64,000 nucleotides of DNA from Morchella semilibera. Lineage: Eukaryota > Ascomycota > Pezizomycetes > Pezizales > Morchellaceae. The notes beneath the pieces were generated by a model. That model was not told the DNA's origin. It saw nothing but the letters and a program-made list of their open reading frames with translations, and made no database searches. The position numbers were made by a program, and so were the translations under genes. Numbering within the stretch: position 1 is the stretch's first letter; every line of letters starts with the position of its first letter. The stretch spans positions 1,200,001 to 1,264,000 of the forward strand of contig WBVU01000004.1 in the NCBI GenBank assembly GCA_009192285.1, read 5' to 3'. Shown one piece after another: positions 1,065 through 61,278 of the stretch.

Positions 1065-4021
1065 TCTTTTTTTTTTTTCTCAGCGCGGAGCTCTTTTCAT
1101 AGGCGTTTTCATTTTGGTCTGTTGCATTTCTGTACCTCATCCGGGGAAACCCCATTCCCCACAATTTCCCCATACTTGAATTTTTTGATGTCTTTCCGCT
1201 ATGCCTGTAAGGAGAGCGGAGTTGAATTTTTTGAATGGCGTTAGAATCTCCTCAATATCTCGTTCTACCACATTCTTCCTTGTTTTATTTATATGCGTGT
1301 AATCGTGGACCCTGAGAAAAATTGTTTGCTGTGGCACCAAGAATTATGGGGGCCTATGGTTATTTCTTACATGGATTTTCGAAATTGTTTATAGTGGAGA
1401 TATGTATCGTTTTTCTGAGTTATCGAATTGTATTTGAGACTGAACTTGAATTTGTTGAGCAGAGCAAGGGCCTGTTTGTTTTTGTGTTTTGTAACTGGAG
1501 ATTATTGCGCTCCATAATGACTTAAAGCATAAAGAATGCCCCGTATGCGTACTTTCAAACTAATCTTTGTACATTGAGGTCGCATCCTTCCTTCGGGGTC
1601 TTGGGGTAGATATATACGAGTACCGTAGCACGGGCCCCCTAGATGGAATATTAGTAGGCTTAGAGCTAAAGATACCGGACCGATTTCACCCGACAAGGCA
1701 GAGTGTTTCAATTGTACCCATGCAAACAGGAGAGGTTAATTGGTGGCGGTTGAGCTTTAGTGGTCCTGTTTTCTATGTCGAGATGAAAGCGGGAGGAACG
1801 TATGTACGTATTTCAAGCAATCAAATTTTCTCCGGCCTAAATCCTAGCGTTTGCCTCCAGATTCATTTACCGTTTCTCCGAAATTATAATCGGCAATAAG
1901 TTAGCTTGTACAACGTTATGGCGAACAGCGTCGGTTTTTCTTTCTGCAGGTCCACTCCAAATTCATTCGGTAGCGCGTAACTGCATGGAACTTTCCGTAA
2001 TATGAAGTGTATCCAAACACATAGCTTTCGAATACAGCATCTTCCAGAGGAATGAATAGTCCACGAGGTAAAAGTGCTAAGTATCTAATGCAGGGACCGT
2101 GGCCCCATTAGCTACATGTAGTACGGATGCAAAGCTGGTCTCCCGCCCTAAAGCTCAATTGCTCTTTCTAGATTATTTCCAAAAGAAACGCTCTACATTA
2201 CCTGCAGATACTTCGGAGCCCTTTCCGGCTTCTCTTCCCCCGGTTCACCTTCTTGCAGTAAATCGTTTTATAGCCGGTAAATATTGAGCCCGCCTGATAT
2301 TCTCATCTGCTTGGCAACCGACCGTGTACTGCATGCCATTGGTCCTTCTTGGAATGGCGCTAGGGTGTGCGACCCGTTATCAAATACGGCAGCTCTTCTC
2401 CATGGCCAATAGAAGCATTCTGGTTTTGCCTAGAATATTAGGGTAGTTAGTGTTTTAAGACTCGACATAGAATAATCACACTCACCGCTCACGACGTCAT
2501 GATCACACTCTATCACTCGCTAGAGCGCAAAATACTCTGCCCTCTAAGCATAGGTTGAAGCAAAGAAACAATCTCCCAATAAAAGAACCTAGTTTGTCGA
2601 GACAGAATATGCGTAATTATAATCCCAGATGACCGTACGATAACTACCCCGCACGTTAGTGGGGCGAGTACGGGGTGATTGCAAAAACAAGAATTAATGC
2701 TTCATGTGTAGTACTACTTACTAGTCACGTCGAGGGAAAGCCCCATAAATAATTATCAGCATCATCTGCCTGATTCTGTATGCCACCAAGCAAAACAAAA
2801 AGATCTCAAGGACGAGGGGGGGGCGAGGGGGGGATAGCGGGAGGAAGGTTCTCACCTAGCGAAGACAGATCAGTCACTACATACTTCCAGTAGCCGCATA
2901 TACCCTGAATACGAAGTAGTGGCCATTGTCACATTCAGATATCTGGGCCCATGTTATTGAGTGTATTCCGTAGTGTAAGTGCATATAGCAAAAATTTCTA
3001 TCCCCCGCTGGTCATGAGAAGTGGATTAGGAATCGATATCGGCTGATGGGGCAAGCGGTATAGCATGAGAGTGTTACTATCACCGAGACTGGGGTCGAAA
3101 GGAAAAATATGTAGGTACACTCAGCCAACGTAACTACACGTAACAGTGTCTGTACTAGCCTACCAGCGCTTGACCTCATTCAACAACTCCGTTTAGGTAA
3201 ATGTACCCCGGATGTTGGAAAGTGATGTACTTTTTGACTAGACAACGCCCAAATACATGTACTTTATCACAATACAACAAAGTCGTACAGAACCTCTCTA
3301 CCATACCTGCATGTGGGTGCTGAGCATATACTTGATGAAGAGTACCTGTACACTCATATTTACCTTGAAATAGCCTGGTGTGGGAATTGATTCCCGTGTG
3401 GCTATGAAACCATCTTTCCAACACCCTGGGTACACTTCCGAATCTACAAGTAAAACATGTATCTACATGTAGTACTGGAATATCACTCGTTGCGTATAAT
3501 TTTTTTTTTTCGCCCGCACGCCAAAAGATAAGAGCTACAGTTTACGAAATTCTAATAGTGCTTAGAACCTTCTCGAAGCTAATACCCGGCCACGGTACCC
3601 GTCAAATTATATCAAACTGTCCAGGCGTTTATTTTGAGGCGCCTCGCCTTGCAGGATGAGTACCCTTAAAAAATAGAGTTAAATGGCAAGTCCCACAAGG
3701 CGATACTCTAAGTACCATTCTACAAGGTTACGCTGCAATGGAATGGAGGACAGAAAATTATAACCAGGGTTTTTTTTAAGGGAAGTTATAACCGTTAGCC
3801 GAAGCTTCAACTAGGTTCCCGAGTCCCCCCGTCCCTTAGCCGCAGCGAGAATATTCTTTTTTCTATGAAAACGATTCCGGGGGTATTTAGGAGCTGTAGA
3901 TATTGCTTCTGCATGGAACTTCGCTTGAAGGGGTAAATTTAGGCAATTCAGTCTAATTCTCAATTTCATTTGATTTATAACCAAACAAAAAACTTCATGG
4001 AACCTTTGTGGTCTTTATAAT
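1065..4021. other. Gene-poor intergenic region
   Basis: About 3 kb between the regulator and the peroxiredoxin. Open frames here (for example 1567-1899 and 3176-3424) are short, have no recognisable motifs and no supporting splice pattern. It contains three or more TACATGTA palindromes (one at 2112-2121, one near 3255, one at 3463-3472), a G-rich patch near 2815-2840 and short T runs near 3500 and 3770. No RNA gene or terminator could be recognised. Confidence 0.6.
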
Positions 4022-5043
4022 TTAATTCTTCAGGGTAGTAAACCTCAGGTATCTACACAGAGATTTCAGTAAATTTAAACACGAAAAGGAACGCGGTTTA
4101 AGGGAAACTTACGGCTTCAATACCCTAACGTTGTCCTTCCCAAACTTCGCCTTAGCATCCTCAGTAGAGACGCTTGGCGGCACAATCACATCTTGCCCAA
4201 CACTGTTCACCAGTTAATCAATCGTTTCCCACCACAAACCCGGACAGCTCTCTAAAATTTTACTCACGTCCAATCAATGGGAGTGGTAACTCCATTCTTA
4301 TCCGCAGTTTGCAAAGAGTCAACGACCCTCAAAACTTCTGCAGAGTTTCTTCCGGTGGAAGCTGGATACATCATCATCAATCTAATCTTCTTCTTGGGAT
4401 CAATGACGAAGACGCTTCTAATAGTGAACGCAATGCCCTTCTCATCGATGTTTTTCAAATCTTGCGAGTCAACCATATCATACAGCCATGCAACCTCTCT
4501 GCTCTCGTCAGCAATAATAGGGAAGCTCTGCTTTCCAGTGAATTCGCTGCCAGTGACTTCGTCAATGTCCTTGATCCATTTGTGGTGGCTCTCGAGCCCG
4601 TTGGCTGAGAGACCAATGAGCTTTACTCCACGCTTTGTGAACTCGGGCTGGAGCTTAGCGAATGCTCCAAGCTCGGTGGTGCAGACTGGGGTGAAATCGG
4701 CGGGGTGAGAAAAGAGAATTGCCCAGTTGTCACCAATGAACCTGTGCTACATTTTTAGATTTTTGTTTCCTGAGCAGTGTAGTACTAGTTAATGGGCTTA
4801 CTCGTGGAAGTTAATCTTGCCATGAGTAGTCTCCGCGGTGAAGTTAGGGGCCTCAGTACCGAGACGAAGACGAGGCTGTTCACCGGTCTTTGAGCCAGCA
4901 AGATTCTGGAGGGCTCTAATGGGAGCCACGGAGCGTTGGAATTGGGGACGGAATTGAAGAGGTGCCCGCACAATTGGGGTGGTGAGAAGCCCAGAGGAGG
5001 GGCGTAGAAGGGAACGAAGGGGTGCAGCAAATGAGGGGCGCAT
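4022..5043 (-). CDS. prx1: 1-Cys peroxiredoxin, mitochondrial type (Prx6/Prx1 group)
   Basis: A thiol peroxidase that reduces hydrogen peroxide and organic peroxides, predicted 278 aa. Exons (minus strand) are 5043-4802, 4741-4268, 4202-4113 and 4052-4022; coding length 837 nt, all introns GT-AG. The first ~45 residues are Arg/Ser/Pro-rich without acidic residues, as expected of a mitochondrial presequence. The peroxidatic motif HPADFTPVCTTELG places the active Cys at residue 101, and the Prx6-type C-terminal domain has TPIDW, DVIVPPSVSTEDAK and ends in KPYLRFTTLKN. The last nine residues lie in a 31-nt exon: reading through the donor at 4112 would give a protein ending at LKP, so the small exon is inferred from the conserved KPYLR ending. 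No resolving Cys is expected in the 1-Cys class. The gene is isolated; its upstream region carries no clear promoter motif that I can name. Confidence 0.9.
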
Positions 5044-7070
5044 TTTTGTGTTGATTGAGGTTATTTATTCGACCGTGAAGATTTGTAAATATCTAGATGA
5101 TGTTGATGGCGGGGCGAGAAAAAACCCTGGGCAGGTTTTGTCATACGTGCTACCCGATCACGCATCGCCTTATCACTTCCACTTCGTACTAGAAAAGTTA
5201 TTAACAGCTAATACTAAATCTCATGGAAACAACTTTTATTCTATAGTAACTCTACTACCCACTGAAAACGAAAGAAACAAATCGAAAGAATAAGCCAAAC
5301 AAACTGCATTGCATGATGCATAATCTTGCAGGAACATACATATGAATGATGACTAATCATTTGTGGAAGCTCTGTTCCCATTTAGCGTAAGTACCCCTGT
5401 ACCTACATCATGTCCTACTCGTCCCAATCGCAACTGTACGAAGAAAATTCTTTACAATATCACCTCTAACCGGGTCAGATGTGACGAAGTACATGTAGTT
5501 CTAAGCCCCCTCCCTACAATGCCAAAAAGACTCTAGATATGAGTGTGACGTTTTGATGAGTTTTCATTGGTGGAGTGATATCCTATGATGTGCTTGCTTT
5601 GTACCCACATGTACCACTTAACATGTACAGCCCCGTTCGAAAAGTCCTAGCACCCCCGGGTCAAAAGTACGAGGGTGTTTCTTCTATTTTCTAATTCTCC
5701 CATTACTATGACTATAATAACAGAGAGCTACAATGTCTTCATTACGGCCATACACATCAATTTTTGAGTATGGGCAGAAGAAATGGTTGTTGGTTGGTTA
5801 GAATTCATAAACAGATATAATATAGCAGGGTGCCGGGACTTTTCGAACAGGGCTGTACGTGTTAGTACCTACAGTAGTAGTGTCTACCGGATAATTCGTG
5901 GGCACATGTAACCCAGATGCGGCGTCCAGCGTCCACACGTACCTACCTACATGCTTTGGCCCTCCAGCCTCCATAGGTCAGGAAAAGGCCGGCGGCTCCC
6001 CCGAGGCCGTGAAGTTTGCTCTGGGATAAACATGTATTTATATACATGTCCCTACACCCCCAAAATATCATTGTAGATGTACCCACTGAGGATCACCCAT
6101 GGCCACCGAGAGACAGAAGGGTCGGAAAAGGATCAAGCACCAAACCCGACAACCGACACGACTATGGGAGGAAAAATTGGCATTTCCCCTCAGTAACCTA
6201 GAGATCTTAATTTTCCTACAAGTGATTAGCAGAAGACCACCTGGGATTGGTAATGTAAGCACCAGCATTTTTAGCACGCTTACATATATTGACACTAGCC
6301 TTGTGGCACCATTTGAGCTCGGGGTTAGGGTTTGACCAAACATACCGATCGAGGCCTGCCCACCGAGCCTGGTACGGAAGAATGAAAAGTATTCTTGGAT
6401 TTCTTGCTAGGCATAACAAACCATATATATTCCGGAAAGAATCGAGCCCTTGGTGGCTGCCGGATCACCCACCACAGTTAACCCTCGATCATGAACGTGT
6501 GTAAACTTCGGCGTTTGCAGCCAATCAGTCTATAGAAATTAGGAGATCTACTCCCATAATTGTACTAGCGCCTAGCCTAACGGTCTAATTCCCATACAAA
6601 AAAGATTCCTCTGCGGTTTACACACCCACCCCCTATGCCCCCTCGTGCCATATATCCACGGAATTTGATTAGAAGACACTGGTCTTTTCTTGCATATATA
6701 CATAGTTCTTGTGGCTTGCGTCGTAAACCAACCATACACCTACCAGAAGTGAGCAGTCTCTCCCAACGGAACTTCACGGTAGTCTAATACTGTAACTACG
6801 ACGTCATGTCGAAAATCTCCATCATGAGCCCGCACTCAATCGAGTGATAGCCCATGAACCTGACCCCCCGAACCTTTACAATCCACCTAACCCAAAGCCT
6901 AGAGTAAACCACCTTTATTACCATAAAAAAAAGAATTCAAACCAGCTAGTTAGCAAGATAATTATCCCCCCTATTTATGCACCCACAAACGCCGCCTCCC
7001 AATATTTAACGGCATAAAAACACACATATAGGCAACAAAAAAAAAGAATGAAAAGAAAGTCCCAGCACCA
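5044..7070. other. Intergenic region with MITE
   Basis: About 2 kb separating the 1-Cys peroxiredoxin from the GH128 gene (upstream of the former, downstream of the latter). Apart from the MITE at 5628-5855 it holds several ACATGTA motifs (near 5490, 5609, 5622, 5905 and 6030). Short open frames such as 6068-6343 and 6577-6777 show no protein-family signature and are treated as chance. Confidence 0.55.
5628..5855. mobile_element. MITE family 1, apparently complete copy (TA target duplication)
   Basis: A 228-bp non-coding element. Its ends are inverted repeats of about 28 bp: the left end reads CAGCCCCGTTCGAAAAGTCC and the right end reads the reverse complement of CAGCCCTGTTCGAAAAGTCC, continuing inward to CACCC, with about three mismatches in all. 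It is flanked by TA on both sides (5626-5627 and 5856-5857), the target duplication of Tc1/mariner-type transposition. There is no open frame for a transposase, so it is a non-autonomous element. Two degraded relatives occur at 19091-19298 and 24684-24785. Confidence 0.85.
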
Positions 7071-8089: not shown

Positions 8090-8878
8090 TGTAGAGTGAT
8101 GTAAGTATTAAATTAGTTGTTAACTTGTTTGTGTGTAGTTTTATTTGAAGTATTAAGTACTGTCTGTGTAGAGAAGAGTATCAAATGTTTCACGAGAAGT
8201 ACCAACCAAGGTGTATTGAGGACAGGTATTATTAAGTTTCTAATTATCAGGCTGGAGGGGGGACGCAAAGCTTCTTATTTAACGACTTTGAGTTCCATCA
8301 AGCCAGTTCTCCAGGCGCAGTACCTACATACATTTACTAACTCTCTGTTTCGCCCTGTCGCCTCCCGTTTCGCCTCCCGAAGTGTCTATCAATTCTTGGT
8401 AACCGTGTAATATTTCCAAGATCTTGGACCCAGCTCCTGGTTGGCTGCCATATCGCGTGTAGCTGCAGATCACTGTATTTATTATTCCCAGGATGTTCTT
8501 GTTTTCTTCTACACGGAAAAGAAAAAAATAAGGTATGTACTCCAGTCGGGTAGACTATTTTACTTTAGCTACACCTTGCGGATGGGCCTAAATTTGGTCT
8601 AGGGCTGTAATTGGCTGGTTGCGCTGGGCTGAAACCTTTTGACATCCAGGGCCAGGTACCGCGCGTATGAAGTTTGCAGCCCGCTGTTAAGGCTGGGGTG
8701 GGTGAGCACACTCTGTGACAGTAGTGGCGGTAAAGAAGTGACATGACAGGCGATCTAAAACAAGATAAATATAAGTAGAAGTACATCCCCGTTTCACACC
8801 AAGAGTTCCGGGGTAATACATGTAGTAACAGGGATCGGAAAATTAATAAGCTGTAATATAGTTGTTAATTGGCATGTA

Positions 8879-8900: not shown

Positions 8901-9138
8901 GTGGTGCTGATCTTTCAATGCCTGCATTCATTATTCCTTGTTTGCTCGCTGACTGACTCACGCAGTACCTACATTTACTGCCCCCCAAATGAATTTCTAC
9001 CACAATGGTCGAAAACTTGGATGTAGATGCTGTCGTCCTCTACCCCCCCACTTTCAATCTGGCCTGGCCGTTAAAGTAAATGTCATGTAATGCTATTACC
9101 TACCTCTACCTACTTCTACCTACATGTAGTCCAACACT

Positions 9139-10959: not shown

Positions 10960-13208
10960 TGTGATTGTTTAAAATTAGCTGGGTTTTTTTTTATATTGTG
11001 ATGGGATGGAAGATTGCTGGTAGACGATGATGGACGAGAGAAGAGGAGAAAGCTGAGGTAGAAATAAAGCCTAGGGCTGCACAGGGAACCCACCCCACCA
11101 ACACCCCGCAACTAGCTAATGATGTCATGTAAGCACGCCAGGGTAATATGGGGTGGGGTGAGGGACGTGCGAATACAAAGTATTTGGAATTACTCCCTTT
11201 CCCCATCATAATTTACCTATTATCGCGGCGACTCCGCGGGATGCCCTACAATTGCAAACAAGACTTGAAAGTGCGGTTCCTTACTGTAAATGTTTTTGAT
11301 GGGATGTGCGCGGGTCGGAGCGGAGCATGTGCACTTATTACTATTGAGGCAGAGTAAAACTTTGACAGGTTGAACGAACCCTGGCGCGGTGCCGATCATT
11401 AAATGACAAATATCACAGCGTTAACGTTAATCCCACTATTAATAAGCCCCGCTATATCAACGATATCGGGACGACACCTAATGAATACATGTAGGTATAA
11501 TTTAATCATCTTTCCCTTTATTACAGCTGTTTATGAGCACTCCATCTCTCGTGTGTTCTTGCAATAATTCACATTCTAATCTATGGTAATTCTCTAGACT
11601 CGTTAAAAACCTATCTCCATCGGCCTCCAGACGAAACCCACAAGCATCTTCGGCATTATCTGCACCACACGACCCATCATATAAATCGGAGTTAATAAAT
11701 ATAATATCCTTCACTCATATAACATCTTAGACAAGGTTCCCAGTCAGCAAAAAAAAAAAAAAAAAAACAGGCAAGAATAGCCTACATTCAAATTGTTTAC
11801 GCAGGCTCCCACCTACCTGAGGGGAAAGAGATTTGGAATCCCCACTACATCATCCGGGTATCCGCCCACGCCAAGGCCGGCTTCTCGAATCTGCAAGGGC
11901 CGTCCGTATCTTTCTGCAGCACTGTAAAAGACATGATTACTCGCCCTGTTTAGACATCAACCGGGTACGAGGGTTTTTGATAGATAATGACATCTGATCC
12001 AAATATTTGGAACTCCTACACCCGCATCGTCGGTTTGGGCCCTGTACAATCTAGATGAGTCCGGAAAAAGTTGGGTTTATCCTCAAGTACGACTCCCATT
12101 CCCGTTCTATTCAGGAACACTTTACACCCCTCGACGAGTGCGGTCCAGAACACCCAATAGCCTTCATCTCCACCAGCACCAATCGAACCCAACTCACGTG
12201 GGTCCGAGTGATCCCACATGATCACACCTCTGTACCTGCCTGCCTGCTTACGTACCTACATACAACCCCCACCCCCGATCTCCCCACCCGCTCCGACTGG
12301 CCAGCGCCCACGCCCGCTGTCGACGCCTCCATCTCGATGAAGCGGAGCCCTGGGTTTCATAGTCAAACAGGAAGGACCCTGCGCGATGAAGAAGTTTCAC
12401 TGCGTGTGTGTCCATGGCTTCCAATTGGGCCCGCGCACACCGCTGAATCAAGTCTAAAACTCCTCTGGGGGCGTGTGTTTGAGGGTAGAGTAGGTTTTAG
12501 CTTTTTTTCCTTTTTTTTTTGCTGGTAGTTAGTTACCTTCGGCAGAGAGGGGACATGCGTTCATCATCTTGGCCGGTGCGGAATTGCAATTGACGCCTTG
12601 ATACTTACTCGATGTAGGTACATGTAGTTGGAGAGGGTCCAATGACTGACTGACCGAGCAACCCGCCCTCCTCCTGAGACTTACACCTTGCACTTCCTCC
12701 TCCTTCCTCGGGGTCTCCCCACAGCCAACTACGTGTACCCCACCCTCCCATTTGCCCAAGCCCCCCGCCCAATCGGCAGGCACTCTACACCCCATTACCG
12801 TTATGAGTGAGATAAGCACAGCCATCGCTTATCTGGACCAGTTTTTTCCCCCCTTTCTCTGCCGTGCGGGGGATTTTTCCATTCGTTCAGGGGCCATGCA
12901 TGTGTATATATTTTTGGACCAGTGAGATGAGAGGTTAATTGTTGATATAAAGTTCAATTCTGACTGAGCTCTTAGTTTACAACCCCCCCAATCTCTGGTA
13001 GTAGAGGGGTGGATATAATGGTTTTCTTTTCTTTTCCTCCCCTTTGGTAGTAGAACAAATGAAAAACAAATAACAAAAAAAAAACTACAAGACGTGTAGT
13101 GCTAGTGGTGGTGGTTAATATAACAATTTAAAAAAAACGAATATAAAAAAACCGAAACAGAAGCAGAAACAGAAGTAAAAAAAAAAACTCCTATACAAAA
13201 ACCCCCAA
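10960..13208. other. Intergenic region
   Basis: About 2.2 kb between the Prx5-type gene and the 3' end of the ferric reductase. It contains an A tract at about 11750-11767, TACATGTA copies near 11489 and 12619, and A/T-rich low-complexity sequence at 13060-13190 that is probably the 3' untranslated region of the reductase. The open frames at 11502-11714 (minus) and 12055-12528 (plus) lack family signatures and I do not call them genes. Confidence 0.55.
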
Positions 13209-14984: not shown

Positions 14985-15018
<34 letters not shown>

Positions 15019-19090: not shown

Positions 19091-19298
19091 GGGTTCGAAG
19101 GGTCCTGGCACCCCCGGGTCAAAAGTACGAGGCCGGTGTTTCTTCTGTTTTCTACTTCCCCCATTACTGGCTATAGTGACAGAGAGCTGCAATATCTCCA
19201 TTACGGCCGTACGTACCTAACAATCTTTGGGTATGCAGGAGAAACGACTGTTGGTGGGTTAGAATCCATAAACAGACACAATATAGCGGACAGGGCTG
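19091..19298. mobile_element. MITE family 1, degraded copy
   Basis: Aligns by eye along most of its length with the copy at 5628-5855: shared blocks include CACCCCCGGGTCAAAAGTAC, CAGAGAGCT, CATTACGGCC and ATAAACAGA. The left inverted repeat is shortened and mutated (GTTCGAAGGGTCCTGGCACCC) and the right end keeps only ACAGGGCTG. No TA duplication can be recognised, so it is an old, immobile copy. Confidence 0.8.
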
Positions 19299-22693: not shown

Positions 22694-23055
22694 TTCGGTC
22701 CGTCAATGCTGATCCCCTATAATAGAGTAATTAAATTTGTATAAGAGATCTATTGGAGGACTTCCCACGTTCTATCGCCCAGCATGCAGAAGAAATTCAG
22801 ATGTCCTATCAAATAGAACGGGAGGGTCTACTCGCCTGTTAAAGGCCTCCCCAGCCCCTCTAGAAGCGGGGATCCCTACCGACCTTAAGATGCCCAACCT
22901 GTATTGGCAGTCGATTATATCATTCCCATATAATATGTTCTATCCCTTACGGGAAGTCCTCGAGTTCCATTATTTGATATAGAAGAGAGATAACGAGATC
23001 TGTTAGTAAAGCCACATTTTCTGGCGGTCAGCATTTTAAATTTACTGATAGACGA
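22694..23055. mobile_element. MITE family 2, degraded and interrupted copy
   Basis: The left part (about 22694-22750) matches, in reverse orientation, the right half of the element at 47009-47164: CGTCAATGCTGATCCCCTAT and AATTTGTAT...AGATCTATT. The right part (about 22985-23053) matches its left half: GAGATAACGAGATCTGTTAG, TAAAGCCACA, GGTCAGCATTTTA. Between them lie about 230 bp with no counterpart in the 156-bp copy, so this copy is either a longer family member or carries an insertion. Ends have decayed. Confidence 0.7.
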
Positions 23056-24683
23056 TGGAATAACTACATTTAGGGCTGCCTGAAATATAGCCGCCAATTC
23101 CCAATCAGGTTGCGGCTTTGTGCATTATCAGCAGCTGGAGATAAAAGTCCAGATCAATATAGAGGAGGTTGACTAGTATTGATACAGTGACCCACAGAGC
23201 ATAATCCCTGCTACCCGGAACGCTAACTCAAGTGTGATGCTGAATTTTGAATTTTTGAGCTGAAAGACCAGCAAACGATATGCAGCCATAAGGCTGTATG
23301 TTGAAGACTCATAGGCGCTGTAGATCTAGGCCGCTGCTGTTGGACATGTTTACGTACTCACACCCCGATTGATGGGGGGGGAGGTATTTGAGACTTAAGC
23401 TTAAACTACTTGAGTATAGATAAGTAATCATGATCAGCTCTTATATAGCTTAAGCTTGCGTATCGCCTTGAAGATCTGTAGATTGCCGAGAGCATGATTA
23501 GATATTTTTTGATGCCTACTTACATACATGTACTTGGCTGTTGGACTGGAATTCTAGGCGTCATCATGTCAACAGAGCGGATTTAGGTTCCGTAAGGGAG
23601 GGAGAGAGAGTAACCTTGTGCATGTCCGTGTTGGATGGGCTGAATCCCGGAGATCGGGAGGCTCGGGTTAATGCAAAATATAGCCTATGAACAGTGCTTG
23701 CGATTAGATTGGTGAGCCAATGGATCACCTAAACATTCAGCAATTGATAATAGAAACAGACCTACATGACAGTCCAATAGTTATAGTCAATAGGGGAAGG
23801 ATTTTAATTTAATAATCTCCCCTTTCATACATACATGTAGTTAGTACACCAATCCCACCACACACCCCCCCCCCCGCCGCTCTTGATGAAGGTCAATTGT
23901 CCGGAACCGTTTACACGTGAATTTTCATGTGTCTTAAGTCTTTCCTCCGAGGCTAGGTGGCGAGAATAAAGACGTGTATTCACTCACTTCACGTAAACCC
24001 AAATAGTAGGGAAAGTGGCCACTCGATCATGGGTTGGTTGGTTGTGTGGAAGCGAGTCTCTGTCTTTCTAGCTCGGCAGCTTAGCCTCAGAAAAGTATGA
24101 GTTTTTGATGGCAGGTTCCGCCCCCTCCAATGCTGTGCGTCCATGTACTCTTTTAGGTGCGACTCGGTCGCGCCCTTAGTCTTAGATCTGGTTAAGAATG
24201 ACTATGGGTGTAACTTCATTGCCTTGTAAGTTGTAACGACAATCACAGCCAATAATTGTTCGCTTTGCCACAAACGACTGCCTGCTCCGAGGATAGCTGC
24301 AGAATTCCATGTGAGTATACCTATTTGTCATGTAGATTAAGCCGGCCTGTTCCTGTACTACATATTTAGCGGGTACATATACTTCGCGAATGATACGGAA
24401 AAGATTCTCGCCCTAGGAAGCAAGGGATAAGATCTACAAACACTGCTCACGAGGTCACACCATCTTATCTTCGGGTTTATGAAACAGCCTTGCAATGGGT
24501 AATATGATCAAGGTAAATTATTGGTGTCGGTGGGACTGTTTTGCCTTACATGAGCTAAGTGCTTTTGATGACCGCGTCTTGGTAACGGCCAATAAGGTAC
24601 ACGTGTGTTGGGTTGATGTTTATTCGTATGGCCGTTGTAACCCGCTCCGAGTGACCTCCTGTGAACATGTAAATACAAAATGT

Positions 24684-26923: not shown

Positions 26924-29900
26924 GGTTTCGTGTGATTTATAAAACTTTTGGACGTGTTTCTGTATTGCTGATGAAATAGACTTGAATATCTTCCGGAAGG
27001 TATTCGGTGTACGTAAGACAATCAATATCGTATATCGAAATAATATCTGACAAGAATATAGGCGTTAAAGGGCGAAATGCGTGAATCAATCACTGCACAA
27101 GAAAAAGAGTGATTTTTCCACAGGTCTCTCGGGATGGTGCCGCTTCTTCGAGGGAAGAAATCATCTCTATATACTCATCAATAAAAGAGGTTAAACCTCT
27201 CAGAAATCCAGTGAAAGGGGTTGTTGACACCCCCGGTTAGAGCAAAGGGCCGACAAGCTTAAACTCAACCACATACGGCTTCATACTGTATCGATGCTAT
27301 AGCTAGCGCTAATGGATACAAGAATTCAAAATCATTTAAGGTTGCAGGTCTAGGATTAACTAACCAACTGATCCCCTACATTTGCTGCTATGAAACCGCC
27401 GAAACGCACAGTGGGGTTGCCAAGGAATTTCAGCTGGGGAATCGCTGGGCGCTAGTAGGCCAGCAGTTGATTGATTCAGGATACTCAGCCCGTTTTTAGC
27501 TAGAAGTGGCAGGTTTGAGGAGGTAGAGTATCTGAGGATATTAGGAGGTTGACAAGATGCTGACTACATGTGGTTTACTTTTGGGGGCCACTACCAGTTA
27601 TTTCTTAATTTCACGCACATACTCAATGCTCCAAAGCAAGGGAACGAATGGCATTTTGGAGTGCTCTTATCGAGGGACTGTTAGTTGGTGTATACGGATC
27701 ATTAGGGATTATCGTGAGAACTCTAGGCATCAGAGTAGACGACTGTTTATCCAGGTATCTTTCTCGATAACGCTCATTGGAGCCTATTATCTGGCTCCGC
27801 ATCAATTCAAATTCGTGATACTTAATGAATAGCGGGAACGCGGGAAAATCTATATTAAGCGCCTCGGCCCGAGCCGAGAATCGTGCATAGCCGCCGAATC
27901 GAGTGATGAGCTGTCATATTCGAAGAGGCACCTATTGCGTCAATTAATTTTATTTCTTCAGGTCTTTGACCCGAGATAGGCTATTTGGCCTAATACTTCG
28001 TGACATGGAGTCCAATGGCATTCTTGTCGGAAACTTCGTCACAGTATTAGCGCCGGCGGAAGATGTCTCTGGTACTAAAGGACAGAAGGAAGAAAGGTTT
28101 AAATTTAATTTTATAGAGTTCCCTTCTTAGACGAACCCGCGTCAGTTGTTCCTTTGAGAGGCGTTCGGATTGTCAATTGAAGACTAGGATATAGATGCCG
28201 GTGGTAATATCAATGGTCTTCAATGTACGACCGTAGACACTTCTACTTCCGCTAAAAGAGCGCGTAGATCCCTCCCTACTGGATATAAACCAAGAGTTCG
28301 CCCCTTAATACCCCCTGAAGGCTTTTCGCGGAAGTCTCCGGTGAATCTTGTCTCGAAATACTTTTGAACCCCTAAAATCTGTGCATGTTGATATATAAGC
28401 GGCAATCGCGGGTCGACAATACCTGCAGACAACAAATAAAGGGCCCGGGTAGTTGTGACTAGACTTAAGCAGGATATTGGCAGTGGTGAGGTTGGTCGCC
28501 GACAATGGTTCTTTGGAGGTATTAGAGACTTCAGTGGCATAAACAGCACTCTGTTCTGAAATAAGCTCTGGTTCAAATCCATAGCATATTGCGCTCGTTT
28601 ACAACGACTAGTGATTCTTGATATAAATTTCATCTTAGTAATAGGGCTCTGGGTCTGAATCTTAAGAGCTCTGGATCGCCTAGGCCCTCTGTTGGAATAT
28701 TAAAACTCGTAGGCATTAATTAATATATGAAAACACCCATCTCCTGAAAAACCTATCCAGGTGCCCCCGCTGGTTATCAAACTGCTACAAGTACCTGCAG
28801 GCGGGTGAAGCGCTTAGAGCATCCACAACCAGCACCTCCCAAAGTTAGCCTTCATAATAGGCTATAGAATCCCATACTCTGAACCGTGCGGCCCGCGATT
28901 CTAATATATCAAGTCATGCTATGAAATTTCTAACACTTAAAGCACATTTTACCCCAGCACAAAGGGTGGAGTTCTGGCACATGCATCTAGCATGGTAGGT
29001 AGTATTTGTTATTGACCCCCATTCTTGTCTAGTGTTATTTTGAAAATAGATACAAAGTGGGAACACAGGCGTTAAAGAAAAAAATTGGGCACGCGCGGCT
29101 GCAAGATGTTGTGCAGCTTGAGCTAGCTACATGTATCTGTGAACTCTGCTCAGCGGTGTTGTTTTGAAAATGGATACAAAGAGGAACACAGGCGTTAGAG
29201 GAGAAATTGGGTACGCGCGGCTGCTAGATGTTGTGCAGCTTGAGCTACATGTAGCTATCTGTGAACTCTGCTGGGCGGTGTTTGAGCACATCTTCAGTCA
29301 TAGAGTATCACTCACTCTATCTGAGGTAAATACATGTATAAACCCCTTTTCCGTGATCATGTTTATAGCTCATTTCAACTAAGCCCTAACAACCAGGACC
29401 CCAAAATCAACTAATTTATCAGCCCCAGACAATGTAAGTAGATGGGGCTCTCAAAAGATATCGCGCGCCAATATATAGAATTTTTAGTATTAGGCGAGTA
29501 TAGTTGAGTTTTGAGAGGTGGTTACTCTTGTATATGGGTACATAGGTGTACTTGCCTGGTAATTCCGACACGATTTCCCATCATAACTTAGCCCTTAATT
29601 ACAAGGAGAATCTCGAGGAACGTTCACCCCCGACTCCATATCCTAAATTTATACTTGGGAACCAGTCGCCAACTTTCATGTGGCCCCGAAGCGAAAGGCA
29701 GAATTAAGATCAAACGAGCCATGGAAACCGATTAGGTAGATCTAGGCGTACGTGGTGCTAGTCTTGACCAATTGACCCCAATACATTTCCTATGTTTACC
29801 TGGGGAGAAAAGCTGCTTGTATGGACGGGCACGAGACTGGAGTTTACGTAATGTTCATGAACTCTGACTCGATACAAGGCCTTAAGGGCTAGGGGACACT

Positions 29901-34015: not shown

Positions 34016-35151
34016 AGCTAGAGAGATTCTGAAGAAAGTTTTTAAAATCTTTGGGAGGACGATGGCGTTATTACGGATAAAGTTTGGGAAGCGATTTTTT
34101 TTTTTTTACTATAAATGGGTTCAGCATTACGTTTGCCTACATGTGGATATCTTTTTTTTTTGTTATTTCGTAGATTATCTTCGATCAAGTCAGGGTCTCC
34201 GTTTGAAGAGACTACTACCGCGAGGGGTAATTAAATGATATTGGGTGCTTTGAAAATGCATATATTACGTCCCCTTGCAAGCCGCGTCATCAACTAACAT
34301 TGATGGACCCCAGACAATTAATGCCTGCTAAACTAAAGACCACACCCACGAAATGTGGGGTGGCGCGCACTAAAGGGCGAGCGGTGATTAGTATTTGGGG
34401 GTCTTGATGCATATGGGCGAGTGATGGGGTGTGCAGATACTTGTTAAGAGCGGCGATTCCCGCTTGCCGGGGTGGACTGGCGAGTGATCTGTGGTGATTT
34501 CTAACTTTTCTTTTCTGGTACTGGTGACCTCGAAGATATTTGTCTTGGGTAAATGTGAGGTCTATATATGACTGGCCTTTCCTTCCAAGTATCGAGTGGA
34601 GTGGAATCGGCTACAATTATATGGGCAGGTCCCTATAGCTAGTGGCGTTGATAGCCCTGCAGCTGGAGCGTTTTCATAAAAGATTTTATTCAGATAGTAC
34701 ATATTGCTGGAATGTCTCCATATAAAGAAGCTGACGAATCAGCTATTTCTTTATCTCTTTGTGTTCTCTTTATAGACATCGCTTTTCCTTATACAGATAT
34801 TTTTCCTTATACAGATATTTTCATATTTTTGATTACTATAAAAGGAAAGACGATATCCACTTTGGATAATCATCATAGAATCAATCAATTCACTCCTTTT
34901 GACGATCCTACTGCCTATTTTTGAGCAGTCCATATCCTATTATCTGTCACATATCACTTGTTTTGCAATTGAAAGTCTAATATATTTTCCATTCTGCCAT
35001 ATCATTCATTAACCCAATATCCAATATCATTATGGAGGGTATATTATATATGCAAGCCAAAGGTACGTACATGTACTCCATCCGCAACCCAATCATCATA
35101 TACAAAACAAACACAGCAAAAAACAAAAAACAAAAAAAGAAGACCCTGCAC
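34016..35151. other. Intergenic region between convergent genes
   Basis: About 1.1 kb downstream of both the GT90 gene and the M28 gene. It contains T runs near 34097 and 34152, two adjacent copies of CCTTATACAGATATTTT (34786-34820), and a TACATGTA copy near 35071. No gene or terminator structure is supported. Confidence 0.5.
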
Positions 35152-36721: not shown

Positions 36722-38496
36722 CGTGATGGGTATATAAAAGGCTCCCAGGTACTAAGCGGGGGGCGGTGGGGGTTCGAGGTCGAGTGTACGTGAAGAACAG
36801 GAACGCTTACCACCAAAAGGATCAACTTATATACATGTATTCACACTCGGGAGAGGTATTCTAGGGAGACTACATGTAATTGTAATGCTCATGTACGTGC
36901 AATGTCACTCATGCATGTCATGTAGTACCACCTAAGACATAGTTTAGAAAAACACCGCCATTAAACAATCGATTCGTGCAATGAAGACCAACCCTGATTG
37001 AGTGTACTGCCACTACTGGAAGTTTATGCATACGCGCATTCCTATCGATTCTGTAAGAGATCATTCAGCCAGCGGTACGCGGTACAATCGTCCCCCTGTC
37101 CCTGCTATCGTGAATAAGCACTAAGAGAATTTGAGGCTCCGTTGCTCGGTTATTTTTGCGGCTGTGTAATATAACCGGCTCAATTAATCTTCATGAAAAC
37201 AGAAGATAATATAGCCAATATTCTGAATACAAGGCGGGATGTTGGTGATAACTGGCGGTGATGTACACGAGTTGAATTGTACCTACATGTATGTACCCAG
37301 TTCTATTAACTCGTGTAAATTCTAGCAAGGGAAAAGCTTTTGTCTTAGAAAACCTTATTGCCTTCCCCATGTGGCCATGGAAGAAACCCCCCGGCCCTCT
37401 ATCGCCAAGAGAACCAATCTTACTTGGTGTATGTACTTATGTATCGGCACCTCAAGAATGTTATTTACTCTATGTTTAGTAACGACCTTTCCTCAATTGA
37501 TCAAAAAGACCTTACTTCAAAGCTCGCTATAGTACCTATTCCCGCAAGCCACAATATAAGCCGAGGGCACAGATCAATGCCCGCTACATACTCTAGAGCA
37601 ACTGATCTAAGTAGAATATGCTTAGATCCACCTGGTGATATTATACCGCGGCTTAGCGGGTATAGGGGCCCATTTTCCTAGTCTCCACCAGATTTGTATC
37701 TATTTCAGTCAATATGTAACCGGCTAACTAGAGTTCTGGAGAGTAGTTGGCGAATAAGGCCCGACGGATATAAAATTAAAAGGATCTATCTACCTGTACG
37801 TTGTATTTACTACATATGCCTCGGCTTGCTTAGTAATAGGGTAGATCGAACAACGCGTAGGGACAGCCGAGTGATCCTACGTGATTTTGTACGATTATTC
37901 TAGATCACGCTGTAGGTAACATATGTACCTCCTACGCGCTCTCTCCACCCACCTACCAATACTATCCAGTTTTTAATTCGGCTCTTCTTCCGACAGGGTC
38001 TAGCTTCAGGGATCCATCACGCGCCTGCATTCCAAAGGTCGATCCAGGGACGCCGCATTCCAGAGGTACCCGTTGGAACCATCTTCAGCTCATGGTCGGC
38101 AACTATTTGAGTAAGGTAGATGAGGTTATGATGCTAGACCTGCGAACTCTTCTGTATTGTGCTTCAAACCCGCGGTGGTAATAAAGTACATACAGTTCTA
38201 CACCCCTTAGGGTCTTGGCCTTCGAGAATCTTTAATCTACGTGGCGCTATCCCAGTCCTATGTTAATCATTAATCATACCCTTGCCGGGAAACCGGATAT
38301 GGGGGGTGTAGGAGTTTGTGGACCTAGCTCGTGGGTTCCTGAGCGTGAGCTCACCATCATCACTCCGCCCTAGGTAGAGTCCCTCGTTTAGCCCTTCTGG
38401 TTGCTCGGCCACTCGTATGGACCGAGCAAGAGGCGGAGCCTCTAAGGTTCTGGATCTACATGTGGTTGCAAGGTCTCCGGTCATGAAATCTGAGCC

Positions 38497-40497: not shown

Positions 40498-40750
40498 AGC
40501 TACTACATGTAAGTACATAGTTGAGAGGTCACGCAGAAGAAAAGTGGGGAAGCTTAAAGAACATGACTAGCGAAGCAAGTCTCAAATGCTTTACGAGGAC
40601 TCCTCAGCTATGGTCCTCTGAGTTGATAATAGATCCCCAATAAGTGAGTCAACAATGCCAATATCATCCTACATGTAGTCTCAGTAAGCTTCATAGTAAT
40701 ACGGCATACATGTAGGAAGTATATGTCGCTAGTCAAATACATGTAGGGAC
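40498..40750. repeat. Cluster of TACATGTA palindromes
   Basis: Four copies of the octamer TACATGTA within about 250 bp (near 40505, 40670, 40709 and 40739), one of them the full decamer CTACATGTAG at 40669-40678. The sequence between copies is not repeated, so this is not a tandem array. Confidence 0.8.
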
Positions 40751-44906: not shown

Positions 44907-45707
44907 TTGCCTTGGAGACTCAGAATGTTTCGCATGCGTGTATACCGGCGCTTTGTTTTTGTTTTTTTGTCCGAGGCTACTAGACTTTGTGATTTCCTTT
45001 TGCATCATATTTATTAACTACATATACAAGTATATCTATATAATGTTTTTTTCTCATTCAAATAGAATTTATATGATCTTTTTTTCTTTCTTGATTCTAG
45101 AATTGTGCTTCAATGCGAGTCTGGAGTTGAAGTTATGAACTTGTATATACGCTAACTACAGGTAAGAGTCAAGCCTCGAATCTCAGCCCCAACACAGCCC
45201 TCACCGCACTCTCCATTCACACAGACCGAAAATCTCACTACATGTAGTTACCTTATCATTGAGCTTGACCAGCTAGGAGTTGAAAGGCCATGTCTCTATT
45301 GGCTTGGTAGGAATATGATGTGCATGCCCCTCTACCGTGGTAACTGCCCAAGATTGGCGGTTTTTAAAGATAGATAGAGCCATAAATGATTATCCGGAGC
45401 AGTCTTATTCTTTGTGCGCCCACCAGAATGTTATTTTTCGCCAGTACAGTTGGGATCTCTCGTCCCGCCCCCTACACTCATGTAGAATATAATTGTAAAG
45501 TTTAAAATCTATTGAATGCATTGATGGCTTCGAATCAGCAAACATTCATTTCAGGGCATCACAGTCGCCTTAGAATAGGACTAAGTGGCTTCTAATTGGG
45601 CCAGGGGTGGTCATAATAGTACAATCATAACGGAAGGCATTGTAATACGAATTTATTCTAAATTGTGCATTTGTTAATACTTAATAACCAAAGAGAATTT
45701 CCAAAAC
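44907..45707. other. Intergenic region between convergent genes
   Basis: About 800 bp, AT-rich, with CTACATGTAG at 45238-45247. It contains the 3' untranslated regions of the GH81 gene and of the small unknown gene. No gene recognised. Confidence 0.5.
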
Positions 45708-46306: not shown

Positions 46307-47544
46307 GTTATAGCTATATATGGGGATGGTAAATGCAAATAATATGAGATTTCCCTGGTGTTCGCTACCAGGTCGATGATCAAACCAAGCTGGAGAAGAA
46401 AAACCGTGGTGAGAGTGCAATGTTTAAATAAGGTCCATGAGTAGGGGCCCTTCGTTTGTATTTAAGGCTCTTGATTGAGTTTGAATTTGTGATCGGATAC
46501 TATTTAATGCCCCCGATATGTATTTTCAATTGGGGGAATAGATAATTATATCCACAGAACATGCAATGTACAACGATAATATCGTATCAGTCGGTATCAG
46601 GATCATTAAAAGTTTTGTCTGACGTTTCAGGTCTTCTTCAGTCACGTGCAAAGGCCCCTCAGCAGAAGCTGCAATCCGCCAATCTCTGCTCCTAGTGAGA
46701 CCGGGTAAAGTCTTTCATTTGTACTCACCAGCAAACTCAAGTATACATGTAGTCTTGGGGTGTCACTGAATACATGTAATTACATAGCCCAAAAGATAAG
46801 AACCTCTACCACAGGACCGGGGAAGGACTTTTGAGGTCTAGAAACATGTATGTACCTACGCACATATATCCACTTTAAGACCGAAAGATTTGAAATCATA
46901 GATTCTATTGCTTAAAACTTCTTTGAAACATGGTTTATATAACACGAGCCCATTGTAACCCTCCTAGGCTATGTGGGGATTGGCTCACACAAAGATTTAC
47001 AGGGCTTATCCCTTAGTCTGTCAGTAAAATGCTGACCCCCCAAGAAGAAGCAAATCTTGTGTGGCTTTACTAACAGATCCGTTATCTCCCTTGTCAAATA
47101 ATAGATCTTCCATACAAATTTAATTCCTCTATTATAGGGGGGTCAGCATTGACAGACTAAGGGATAGCAACCACCGATTTCACTCTGTTAGGCCGGCTTT
47201 CATACATGTATGTTACCTTGATCACAAACTAGCACTCGTACCAACCTTGGCGTAGACTAGGCTTTTTTTTTAATCCCCACGAGATAATAGAAAACGATTT
47301 TTTTCTTCTCGTTTTTTAAAAGTCTATTTTCTGTTAGTTTGGCTGGTCTTGATTTTTAAAGGCCTGTGCCAGCACGAGCCCCCCTTAGGCATCCACATCA
47401 AGGCTGTTTGAATGCCCACACCCCACTACATAACCGCACTCTCATCCACTACTATCCATCACCATCATCTTTCGAAAGCCAACTCTTCATCAATTCCCTT
47501 CACGAAAACCTCGACCTCTTTTCCACCGCCTTTTCTAGGCAACC
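46307..47544. other. Intergenic region with complete MITE of family 2
   Basis: About 1.2 kb with TACATGTA copies near 46743, 46770 and 47207, the MITE at 47009-47164, and the probable promoter and leader of the SAP-domain gene (pyrimidine-rich, 47440-47540). Confidence 0.55.
47009..47164. mobile_element. MITE family 2, apparently complete copy (TA target duplication)
   Basis: A 156-bp element with inverted ends: left TCCCTTAGTCTGTCA, right TGACAGACTAAGGGA (15 bp, perfect). The next inner block is also inverted (AATGCTGACCCCC / GGGGGGTCAGCATT) with a 4-5 bp offset. It is flanked by TA on both sides (47007-47008 and 47165-47166). There is no coding capacity. Related, more degraded sequences are at about 22694-23055 and 38497-38545. 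The family is distinct from MITE family 1 but shares the TA target. Confidence 0.85.
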
Positions 47545-49008: not shown

Positions 49009-49560
49009 ACGCTCTTACTATGTACTTATATGCATTCCCCTTCCCAACTTACTCCAATGCTACACAAGCCGCTCTTTTCTTCTTTTTTGTACTTCAAACA
49101 TTTCCCATGAATGTTAGATTCCCCTGATCGTTGAGCAACGAAACTACATGTAGCAGAATAACACATATACAGAATTATTACATGTAATACCATAGAACTC
49201 AGGCACTATATCTTACCTCCACGCAGATATTACATGTAGCAGAAGTGGCCATGTAACTTTCCCATTTCTAAAATTTCTTTGTTTTTCTCTTTTGTCGAGT
49301 ATCCTGCCAATTTCATTATAATTCCATAAATGCATGATACTGGGGAGTACTATTCAAGGAAGCGAAACAAAGAAAGGAGGGAAAAAAAGAAGACTATTAA
49401 CCAAGCTAAGCAAGTGTAACGGGGGACGAGTGATCACCTGTGCTTTAATAAAACAAACCGTCTCTCAACGCAATGCAACCGAGTCCACGATACAAAAACA
49501 AAACGATTTCCATTCAAAAAAATACATATATAAAACCGGTAAATGAACCCCATTATTACA
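49009..49560. other. Intergenic region between convergent genes
   Basis: About 550 bp containing 3' regions of both neighbours and three TACATGTA copies within 100 bp (49145, 49180 and 49232). No gene seen. Confidence 0.55.
49143..49241. repeat. Cluster of TACATGTA palindromes
   Basis: Three octamers TACATGTA in about 100 bp in the 3' region of the SAP-domain gene, including CTACATGTAG at 49144-49153. Confidence 0.8.
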
Positions 49561-51239: not shown

Positions 51240-53129
51240 ATTAAAATCAGGATATGATGTCTATCTTCTATGTCTGGCAGAAAACACGCTATATATACAT
51301 GTACCTATCCCTGCCCTCTATCCATCCACACCTTCTCTCCCCTTCCCCGCGTTCTCCCCACCCCATACTGTCATCGCGTCCCTACTACCGTCTTTTGGCT
51401 AAAGACCAAAGAAGCCTTTTTCCATCCCCGGCTCTTGCGCATCACCCAAGTGTTTGGCTGAATTCAGTGGATAAATTGGAATATCGGAAAATTTTAGAGT
51501 TGGGTGGGGTGCAGCGCAAGCAGGTTGTGCGGGCCTCGAACCGAAGATCGCGCCGTGGGAACATGCAGGGAAGAGCCATGCTTACAACGTGTATATAATA
51601 GCCTTAAAGGATATCAGTTCCAGTAACAGATATCTAACGCCCCAGAAAGTGTAGCTCATAAGCTCATGTAGCTTCGTTACTAGAAGGAAGGCCGAGCATA
51701 AGAGCCTAATGGCCTAATTGACTTACCCGTCGTTTCGATCAGCACCAGCTCATCAGTTTAAGGTATCGACATTTACAGTGGGAGTGATTATGAATGTGAG
51801 GAGGTAAAGACTTACCGCGAATCAATACCGGGGTTCCACCAGCCAACTACATGTAAACTAGTGGTGATGAGAGTTTATCCATTTAGCCAGAGACACACGG
51901 TATCACTCGGTCGGCCCGAAGGAAACGCTGCAACCACTAATAGTACGCAAGACATACAAGAAAAAAGAAAAAGTCATATGAGCGAATATCAAATCAAGAA
52001 CCAAACTTTGCACTATTCTTGTTCTCGATCTGCGTGCGACGCTGGCACGGTAGATGCGAGCACCTAATACGAGGGCTCCCCGGTCCAGTGATGATTGAAG
52101 GGGATTTTATCTTAAATACTATGTACGATAAATATTTTAAGGAGCATTTATTTTATATACTTTATACACGCCCCATTTTTTTATATAAATAAACATCTGT
52201 TAAGACTTCATATAGCCACCTACTTAACTCCTTTCTCGACATGGCCGCAGCACGCGAAAGTAATCCACAAATAATACTTCCTTGCAGCGTGGGGGCTTGG
52301 GTGGGTGCTAAGGATTTTTTGAGCACTTCGGATCCTTTGTCCCTATGGATGCCTCGATTTGTCATATTAGGAGTGTCGCCCGGGTGATTTTCTATGTTGA
52401 GGATATTTTATTGGTCAAGTGCCGTGAATCGACTAAACAGCGCAGCCCTTCCTCTTTGCGAGCGGTAAGATCATACGTATCAGCCTACCCACTACTACTA
52501 CGATCTCGGACAGGCAGATCAAAAACATCATGCTGAGGAAGAAGACATGGACATTGAGAATGCAAAGATTGAAACATAAACAGTTAAGAGGCAACAACTT
52601 CTGTTGTACTGAAACAACGTTCATTTCCCCTTGCGTTGAAGGATCTCACCGGTCGGTCAACGTGCATACATCTGAGAAACTAGGAACTCTTAATTCTGCG
52701 TAGTCCTATAGAGCTATAGCAGGATGGAAGGATCAAAAGCCAAAATATTCTACTAATTAGAAAGATTAAAACCAAGTACCAAAGGCCCTCTTTAAGTTCT
52801 CATTGGTCAATTGGTCTGGGCGACCGAACTCTACCACTGGCTAGGGGAATAGAATAATATCTACGGAAAACTTAACAATTTCCAGGCCAAGATAAGCTCT
52901 CCACGTCTCGTACTATAAACTCAAAAACCCCAACCCCGACTCCATCATAGAATATCACTCGTGATAAATTCGTTGGATTCAGCAGGCCTCTCTGTTGTTG
53001 TTATCCTTGTGTATTTATAAATTCAGTAGGCACTCCTACAAGTTTATAACCGAAGGATATATAATTATCTCTATGAATCAGAGCGGTTGATGGCTGATCT
53101 GGATAGCTGCCAAGCTTGGCATAAACTGT
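51240..53129. other. Intergenic region
   Basis: About 1.9 kb between the GH5 gene and the LINE insertion. It carries the GH5 promoter and a TACATGTA copy at 51848. Short open frames (51254-51598, 52345-52536) show no family signature. Nothing else recognised. Confidence 0.5.
51290..51297 (-). promoter_or_regulatory. TATA-like box of GH5 gene
   Basis: TATATATA about 50 nt upstream of the GH5 start codon, directly next to a TACATGTA palindrome at 51297-51304. Match and position only. Confidence 0.35.
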
Positions 53130-56100: not shown

Positions 56101-56479
56101 AGCTTCCTCTCTTGAGGAAAGGGCTCTTCGTGGATCGGCGAAACGAGAGTGAATATTCAAATCTCCGCAGACAACAACTGGTTCGTTGGAGGCAGGGAAG
56201 AGAAGGTCCGGTGGAAGAGAACGAGAGGAGGGAGACAGATGCCTATTATAGGCATTGATCACCGTAAAAGACGAAGGAGTAGGTATTTGTGAATTATTCC
56301 AAGAGAGAGTTAGGGCCATAACATCGCCTCGAAGGAGAGAATGGATCTGAAAGGAGATCTCCGTGCTCCAATCAGTCAAAATATAGATAGCCACACGAAT
56401 CTTATCAGTGGCGTTGCGGTGAGGAAGAATAAGTTGGTATCTAGGAGCAGACAAAGGGAAATTGTTGAATAAATACGGC
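53148..56479 (-). mobile_element. 5'-truncated LINE (non-LTR retrotransposon, Tad/I-like)
   Basis: A 3.3-kb insertion on the minus strand. The 3' end is a poly-A tail (T run at 53147-53164 on plus). An 18-bp target duplication, TCATATAAAGTTCGTGCT, lies at 53130-53147 and 56480-56497. From 5' to 3' the element has the rest of an endonuclease domain (VVCGDLNIHS, HSVIDLAFANA, TGSDHTPI), a linker, and a reverse transcriptase. ORF1 and the start of the endonuclease are missing, as expected from incomplete reverse transcription. The endonuclease frame shifts near 56100 and another shift lies near 55430-55480 just before the reverse transcriptase, so at least two frame changes exist. No RNase H motif was seen. 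An exact duplication and a long reverse transcriptase frame suggest a fairly recent insertion. Confidence 0.9.
53294..55414 (-). pseudogene. LINE reverse transcriptase ORF (706 codons, 5'-truncated element)
   Basis: Open frame for the reverse transcriptase of the LINE. It has the palm motif A (TLFLDVKGGFDHVN, Asp180), GVPQGSPISPLLF (about 237-249) and the catalytic YVDD box (residues 267-270, SYVDDFAF). A thumb-like WLGYQCTPTFDPHPHF follows. Near the C-terminus is a CCHC-type finger, CPRCEEEDEDFHHAILVC, common in fungal LINEs. The frame stays open to the stop at 53294, leaving a 3' untranslated segment of about 130 bp before the poly-A tail. The frame runs open upstream of 55414, so that codon is not a true start. 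It cannot mobilise itself because the endonuclease is incomplete. Confidence 0.92.
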
Positions 56480-56497
56480 TCATATAAAGTTCGTGCT
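56480..56497. repeat. LINE target-site duplication, right copy
   Basis: TCATATAAAGTTCGTGCT, identical to 53130-53147; marks the 5' truncation point of the element. Confidence 0.9.
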
Positions 56498-57183
56498 AAG
56501 CCTCCCTGAACTATATTTATTTGATAGTCCCGCTATGTGAGTATGAGATGTTTAAACCCGTATCCCATTATTCGAATGGCTGGCTCCTCGTGTGCTGTCT
56601 AGTATCTTGGGTATCAGTGGAGGTCGGGTATCCTCGCGCTATTCACCCATTACATGTGTGTGCGTCGTCTAGTTCCTACATATGTAGCTACATGTAGTTC
56701 ATTACGAACACTAACTAGAAACCCACCCTCTTGAAACGGCTGCATTTGTTTTGTGTGATTTTTGAGAAACGCCCCTAGATCCCCCGATGCCATATTGGCG
56801 ATGTCCTAGTCACCAGTAGCTACCCAGGCCAACTAGTTTGCACGACCTATATAGCAGAAACGCTCTTATTACATAGCGAAGGCTACAAAGCTTAGCAATC
56901 ATTCTTAATGGGCATTACAAAGATTGCTTGCCGTTATCGGTTGAATCAATCAATCAGCTTGCTGTGAGTACAATTAATGAATTAAGCAAAAAAAAAAAAA
57001 AAACAGTCACCGAGTGATTCCCCGTGACTGACTCGAAAGCACTAACATTAACTATTTTGAGGGATATATACAGGGATCTAGAAACGTCCTGTTTATACGA
57101 CAGCTAATTACCAATAATACATGAAATGCAATCCTTCTAATACCCGACAAGGAAAAGAGCTCCCAAAGCATACGCGATAAATA
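56498..57183. other. Intergenic region
   Basis: About 690 bp between the LINE and the 3' end of ctf18, with CTACATGTAG at 56688-56697 and an A run at about 56989-57003. No gene recognised. Confidence 0.55.
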
Positions 57184-60675: not shown

Positions 60676-61278
60676 ACCGGATTGGGCGGCTTTGTGTGCT
60701 TTAGTACCCGTTTCCGAGGTTTGGGGTTATAAAGATACTTATGTTGAAACGCGTCGTGGTGCTAAAGTGCCTGATGGACGCGTTCAGATTAGATGATCAG
60801 ATAAGATAACTACATATCGAGATGCATTCGCATGGATTCTCACTCACTACTTTACATGTACCCCGGGGTCCTCAAAGTGATGCAACGGCGACAAAGGACC
60901 ACAACCCCGCAGCTACGTGCCTAAAGGTTGGAGACCCGTGTGATTTATGTAGATCGAATTACGCCAGACAGAGCTAATACCCGGAAACAAAATGGAAAAA
61001 GTTAATTGGGTCTAGCTTTGATGGTCGTTGCGTCACTTTAAGGGCCCCTAGGGTACATGATGATAGTAGTAACCTTCTTTGCTCTTTTAACCTGATGAAG
61101 GTACCCTCTTTCAGTTTCTTTGTCGAGCATGCTTACAGCAATAAATTCTTTTAAACTATATACATTATATTGAGAAGTATGGAAAAGAAAAGAAGAATGA
61201 GATGGGACGAGATAAATAAAACAGGGTCGATAGAGACTAGATCCAGCCTCAAAGGCAGTTACACTTGCTTTTAAGCTT
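60676..61278. other. Intergenic region upstream of ctf18
   Basis: About 600 bp; probable ctf18 promoter and the 3' region of the next gene. TACATGTA near 60853. Nothing else recognised. Confidence 0.55.

Follow-up and report, generated by a model that had tools for sequence, protein, structure and literature searches.

The palindromic octamer TACATGTA has previously been described in oomycetes. Seidl et al. (2012) reported it as motif-1, an abundant and conserved element in the upstream regions of 12,070 Phytophthora genes. They linked its presence to expression at the infection stage, and the word was matched to an Irx homeodomain site (PMC3520976). The same octamer corresponds to motif M93 of Roy et al. 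2013 (PMC3597505). As related by Seidl et al. from Berger et al. 2008, TACATGTA is the preferred site of the Iroquois (Irx) TALE homeodomain (PMC3520976). The same paper gives taCATGta as a rare excision footprint of Tc1 in C. elegans. Palindromic ChIP motifs are also described for MoISW2 in Magnaporthe. For true fungi, no report on TACATGTA was found in the open literature, only the oomycete papers being relevant. A preliminary description of the DNA studied here had stated that no described function was known for the word in such fungi. This holds for true fungi as far as the open literature goes, but the Phytophthora/Irx and Tc1-footprint leads are published.

The window analysed here is a whole stretch of 64 kb of fungal DNA. 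Its TACATGTA sites resemble Phytophthora motif-1/M93 in being the same palindromic octamer, very abundant outside coding DNA and not part of a repeat family. However, motif-1 is found in upstream regions and correlates with expression, whereas no upstream enrichment was detected for the sites of the window. In addition, the host is a fungus and not an oomycete, and the extended consensus is TAAC..GTTA. The Phytophthora sister motif TACCGGTA (M94) has 0 copies in the window. The two motifs may be analogous rather than related. The likeness to the Irx TALE homeodomain site consists of the identical preferred word TACATGTA. The Tc1 footprint is likewise an identical TA-bounded octamer, and the window contains an inverted-repeat element of the form CAG...CTG with TA on its flanks. 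In contrast to this footprint, which PMC3520976 presents as rare in C. elegans, the octamer here would be a dominant and near-invariant scar, found about once per 2 kb.

An over-abundant, sharp and gene-avoiding palindrome

The window contains 32 exact copies of TACATGTA (Table 1), eight of them within the decamer CTACATGTAG. An order-1 Markov model of the window predicts 0.78 and 0.04 copies, respectively. In non-coding DNA the expectation for the octamer is 0.77, 1.2 and 2.2 at orders 1, 2 and 3, and that for the decamer ranges from 0.04 to 0.13. The Poisson probability of 32 octamers is 4e-40 at an expectation of 0.77 and 4e-26 at 2.2, and that of eight decamers is 2e-12. The excess is about 15-40 fold, and it is carried by one single word. 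Among palindromic octamers of the window TACATGTA ranks first, the next two having 8 copies apiece, and CATG is the one strongly enriched centre of TA-N4-TA words (32, runner-up 8). The density amounts to one site in every 1.2-1.5 kb of non-coding DNA, or about one per 2 kb overall. The preliminary description had counted about 30 octamers and eight decamers by eye, against a chance level of about one octamer and far below one decamer per 64 kb. The exact counts agree with these estimates, and decamers were recovered at every position listed there. The comparison of 8- and 10-mer counts with a Markov background, which it had proposed for the whole genome, confirms the excess within the 64-kb window.

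Table 1. Positions of the TACATGTA copies and of the tandem duplication in the window.
Feature	Position	Strand	Context
TACATGTA	2113..2120	.	in CTACATGTAG (2112-2121)
TACATGTA	3254..3261	.	
TACATGTA	3464..3471	.	in CTACATGTAG, start 3463
TACATGTA	5490..5497	.	
TACATGTA	8817..8824	.	
TACATGTA	9121..9128	.	in CTACATGTAG, start 9120; ~100 bp upstream of HAD-hydrolase ORF
TACATGTA	11486..11493	.	
TACATGTA	12619..12626	.	
TACATGTA	23525..23532	.	
TACATGTA	23832..23839	.	
TACATGTA	29128..29135	.	tandem duplication, copy 1
TACATGTA	29246..29253	.	in CTACATGTAG, start 29245; tandem duplication, copy 2, shifted 4 bp in unit
TACATGTA	29331..29338	.	
TACATGTA	35068..35075	.	~80 bp 3' of M28 peptidase ORF
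TACATGTA	36832..36839	.	~80 bp upstream of M28 peptidase gene span
TACATGTA	36871..36878	.	
TACATGTA	37284..37291	.	
TACATGTA	40504..40511	.	cluster
TACATGTA	40670..40677	.	in CTACATGTAG, start 40669; cluster
TACATGTA	40707..40714	.	cluster
TACATGTA	40738..40745	.	cluster
TACATGTA	45239..45246	.	in CTACATGTAG, start 45238
TACATGTA	46744..46751	.	cluster
TACATGTA	46771..46778	.	cluster
TACATGTA	47203..47210	.	
TACATGTA	49145..49152	.	in CTACATGTAG, start 49144; cluster
TACATGTA	49179..49186	.	cluster
TACATGTA	49231..49238	.	cluster
TACATGTA	51296..51303	.	
TACATGTA	51848..51855	.	
TACATGTA	56689..56696	.	in CTACATGTAG, start 56688
TACATGTA	60853..60860	.	adjoins MITE-like inverted-repeat element 60861-61054
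Tandem duplication	29032..29282	+	unit ~124 bp, 86% identical; octamers 4 bp apart in unit

TACATGTA is a sharp word, since its indel forms are not enriched and its substituted forms only modestly so. The 24 one-base substitutions pooled occur about 47 times versus 25 expected. In the window the one-base-deletion forms (TACATTA, TACAGTA) are at background, with 9 versus 7.3 and 7 versus 7.2 expected, and the one-base-insertion forms are near zero, with the exception of TACTATGTA (3 versus 0.6). The degenerate form TACNNGTA has AT as NN in 32 of 49 cases, the remaining 17 being near background (12 expected). Regarding half-site geometry, only ACA-TGT at spacing 0 is enriched (51 versus 13), and other spacings are near background. 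A symmetric flank preference was also found, with G, T, T and A at +1 to +4 (P of 6e-6, 1e-4, 3e-4 and 0.02), giving the weaker extended consensus TAAC-TACATGTA-GTTA. Alignment of the sites revealed no flank homology past about 4 bp, local tandem duplication apart, and the copies are therefore not one dispersed repeat family. A single dispersed repeat as carrier of the octamer is accordingly ruled out, and the homologous long flanks expected of a MITE family were not seen. The remark that the flanks differ thus stands beyond about 4 bp but has to be amended for the first four bases, which are non-random. The shared long-flank repeat that would have contradicted the preliminary description was looked for and not found, two copies lying in the tandem duplication. 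Per-site palindromic extension does not exceed what column composition predicts, which sets long hairpins aside as an explanation. Rfam and tRNA searches of the window gave no matches.

Gene models were obtained with a simple codon-usage HMM and Pfam and are approximate. By the HMM, the coding share of the window is 25-27%. Pfam matches comprise ferric reductase, GH81, GH5, GH_cc, M28 peptidase, P450, GT90, AhpC/TSA, DUF7029/DUF7223 and a LINE-type reverse transcriptase, and genes seem broken into multiple ORFs. Both features fit a filamentous fungus. None of the 32 octamers falls inside predicted coding sequence or inside the approximate gene spans (24.7 kb in total), which is even stricter than the earlier statement that nearly all lie outside coding exons. 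No promoter bias was found, at the low power given by 32 sites and approximate gene models: 3, 8, 12 and 17 upstream sites lie within 300, 600, 1000 and 1500 bp of a gene versus 3.2, 6.0, 9.3 and 13.3 expected, and 8 versus 8.8 within 1 kb downstream. The local clusters noted previously are real, as 7 neighbouring pairs are less than 100 bp apart versus 1.9 expected (P of about 0.002). A 10.9-kb region at 12.6-23.5 kb is devoid of TACATGTA, and it includes a spacer of about 4 kb at 15.9-20.2 kb.

Other dispersed and mobile-element-like features of the window

Another over-represented motif, the bipartite (A/T)TCA(C/T)R-N4-ATCACTCG (WTCAYR-N4-ATCACTCG), occurs at about 25 places and consists of two TCAY half-sites 10 bp apart. 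Examples are at 2512, 6841(-), 12205(-), 18593, 24861, 34481(-), 37868(-), 38981, 39786, 51902, 52954 and 57011(-). Its part ATCACTCG is found 17 times on both strands versus about 1 expected. The motif is non-coding, belongs to no repeat family, shows no promoter bias in the window and looks like a protein-binding site. Its presence in the same spacers suggests that dense, dispersed binding-type motifs are a trait of these regions. Co-localisation of TACATGTA and ATCACTCG is not significant (2 sites within 30 bp versus 1.06 expected).

A MITE-like family with the terminal inverted repeat (TIR) (TA)CAGCCCYGTTCGAAAAGTCC (CAGCCCYGTTCGAAAAG-type MITEs) is represented at 5626-5857, 19093-19298 and 24665-24720. 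The element at 5626-5857 has TA on both sides, CATG and CGTG beyond these, and TIR arms identical at 19 of 20 positions. A second MITE-like element lies at 60853-61060 (body 60861-61054), with the TIR CCCYRGGG...AAAGTGAYGCAACG. Its body is flanked by TACATG-TA ... TA-CATG, perhaps a CATG target duplication. Arms resembling this TIR are present at 3204/3431, giving a possible element at 3204-3432. A third inverted-repeat pair, with the TIR TCCCTTAGTCTGTCA...ATGCTGACCCCC and a TA duplication, is found at 47007-47165 and 22698-23063, the two copies being mutually inverted. A LINE-type element with endonuclease and reverse transcriptase is encoded on the minus strand at 53294-56532. It is probably a disrupted copy, since it is spread over several reading frames. 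No relatives of its reverse transcriptase were detected in the bacterial/archaeal genome and viral collections, and the MITE TIR pattern had no match in the viral collection.

Binding site, excision scar or by-product

The octamer is most economically read as a protein-binding palindrome, being sharp, symmetric, gene-avoiding and clustered, without repeat context. The exact core, symmetric flanks and sharp specificity characteristic of an Irx/TALE-like homodimer are all present at TACATGTA. A DNA-binding protein acting as a symmetric dimer would recognise the dispersed octamer, the extended form TAAC-TACATGTA-GTTA contributing more weakly. An Iroquois-like TALE (Homeobox_KN) homeodomain protein is a candidate binder, and any symmetric-dimer regulator reading TACATGTA would fit. 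Sites would build up and last in intergenic DNA, alone or in homotypic clusters. At the genome level such a protein would act as a general regulator or chromatin organiser and not as the activator of one pathway. However, for a transcription factor a site every 1.2-1.5 kb of non-coding DNA is a very high density, and the lack of promoter bias also counts against a binding site. For these two reasons we give the putative homodimeric sequence-specific protein about an even chance. The preliminary description had offered a binding site, a methylation or modification target, and a mutational bias. Among these, the binding site is the best supported, as a putative one, and a simple mutational bias is disfavoured.

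As the main rival reading, which we consider possible but unlikely, Tc1/mariner-type elements or MITEs could have left the octamers behind as excision footprints, making them a fossil record of transposition. A CA...TG-ended element would enter at TA, be cut at its 5' ends 2 nt inside the element upon excision, and leave CA + TG between two target TAs as TA-CATG-TA, the flank bias then reflecting target choice. The accepted model indeed places the 5' breaks 2-3 nt within the element (PMC2642840), and taCATGta is a reported Tc1 footprint (Eide and Anderson 1988, as cited in PMC3520976). The TA-bounded form of the octamer, CATG as sole strongly enriched TA-N4-TA word and the lack of promoter bias agree with this origin. 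The MITE-like element at 5626-5857 has TA-CAG...CTG-TA ends, and its 2-nt-overhang scar could be TACATGTA; diverged members of its family occur at 19093 and 24665. However, the true target site duplication of the element at 5626-5857 is ambiguous (TA or CATG). Since CATG lies outside TA at two elements, the real target duplication may be CATG and not TA; together with CATGTACATG, which a TA target requires and which has 0 occurrences in the window, this weakens the tie to Tc1-type scars. The tandem duplication is equivocal as well. Its copies at 29032-29160 and 29156-29282 read GAGCTAGCTACATGTATCTGTG and GAGCTACATGTAGCTATCTGTG, and removal of TACATG (6 bp) from each yields identical GAGCTAGCTATCTGTG, as if CATG + TA had been inserted at two TAs. 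Yet it fits equally well one 8-bp inversion (GCTACATG), a 4-bp gain in both copies starting from GAGCTACATGTATCTGTG, or the loss of 4 bp in both from a 16-bp palindrome. The 2-nt product TACATA/TATGTA is in excess (71 versus 37), but this is confounded by TACA repeats and a general TANNTA excess, TATATA and TACCTA among them. End-joining scars are usually heterogeneous, whereas no family of imprecise scars, 1 nt shorter (TACATTA, TACAGTA) or longer, was found in the window, which disfavours an end-joining origin. For the same octamer in Phytophthora, the authors rejected the footprint reading owing to its conservation.

Two further explanations appear less probable. In intergenic DNA rich in TAC/GTA, mutational or low-complexity dynamics might yield TACATGTA as a by-product, with no specific recognition. 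Throughout the window, non-coding DNA shows an excess of TANNTA, TACNTAC and GTANNTAC (51 versus 13 for the latter), with TA steps each 4 bp. This over-representation, with its 4-bp-period TACN repeats, points in that direction, and the flank preference of the octamer is partly due to a TA two bases off. However, the excess of these words is 1.5-4 fold and spread over many variants versus the 15-40 fold of the lone octamer, TACNNGTA with other central bases stays near background, and hairpin arms are no longer than expected. Since the excess is confined to one exact octamer whose near-miss indels are not enriched, we regard such a bias as improbable. It is very improbable that the octamer is the tip or target site of an inverted-repeat (MITE) family, marking element ends. 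CATG does lie directly outside TA on both sides of two elements, as AACATG-TA...TA-CGTGTT (5626-5857) and TACATG-TA...TA-CATGAT (60853-61060), one of these four outer CATGs being mutated to CGTG, and in the non-coding background CATG follows TA in just 1.6% of cases. Nevertheless, neither a recognisable adjacent TIR nor flank similarity is present at 30 or more of the 32 sites.

Significance for filamentous fungi and oomycetes

We tentatively propose, as a possibility that is less likely than not, that intergenic TACATGTA numbers tens of thousands of copies in a filamentous fungal genome, maintained by a hitherto unrecognised general DNA-binding factor or laid down as uniform transposon scars, in parallel to the situation in oomycetes. 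If the density seen in the window holds genome-wide, the octamer would count among a fungus's most abundant sequence-specific elements. In that case it would offer direct access either to a general regulatory or chromatin protein of these fungi or to a record of past transposition that can be counted. As TACATGTA has been put forward as a regulatory motif in Phytophthora too, settling the matter in a tractable fungus would also bear on Phytophthora.
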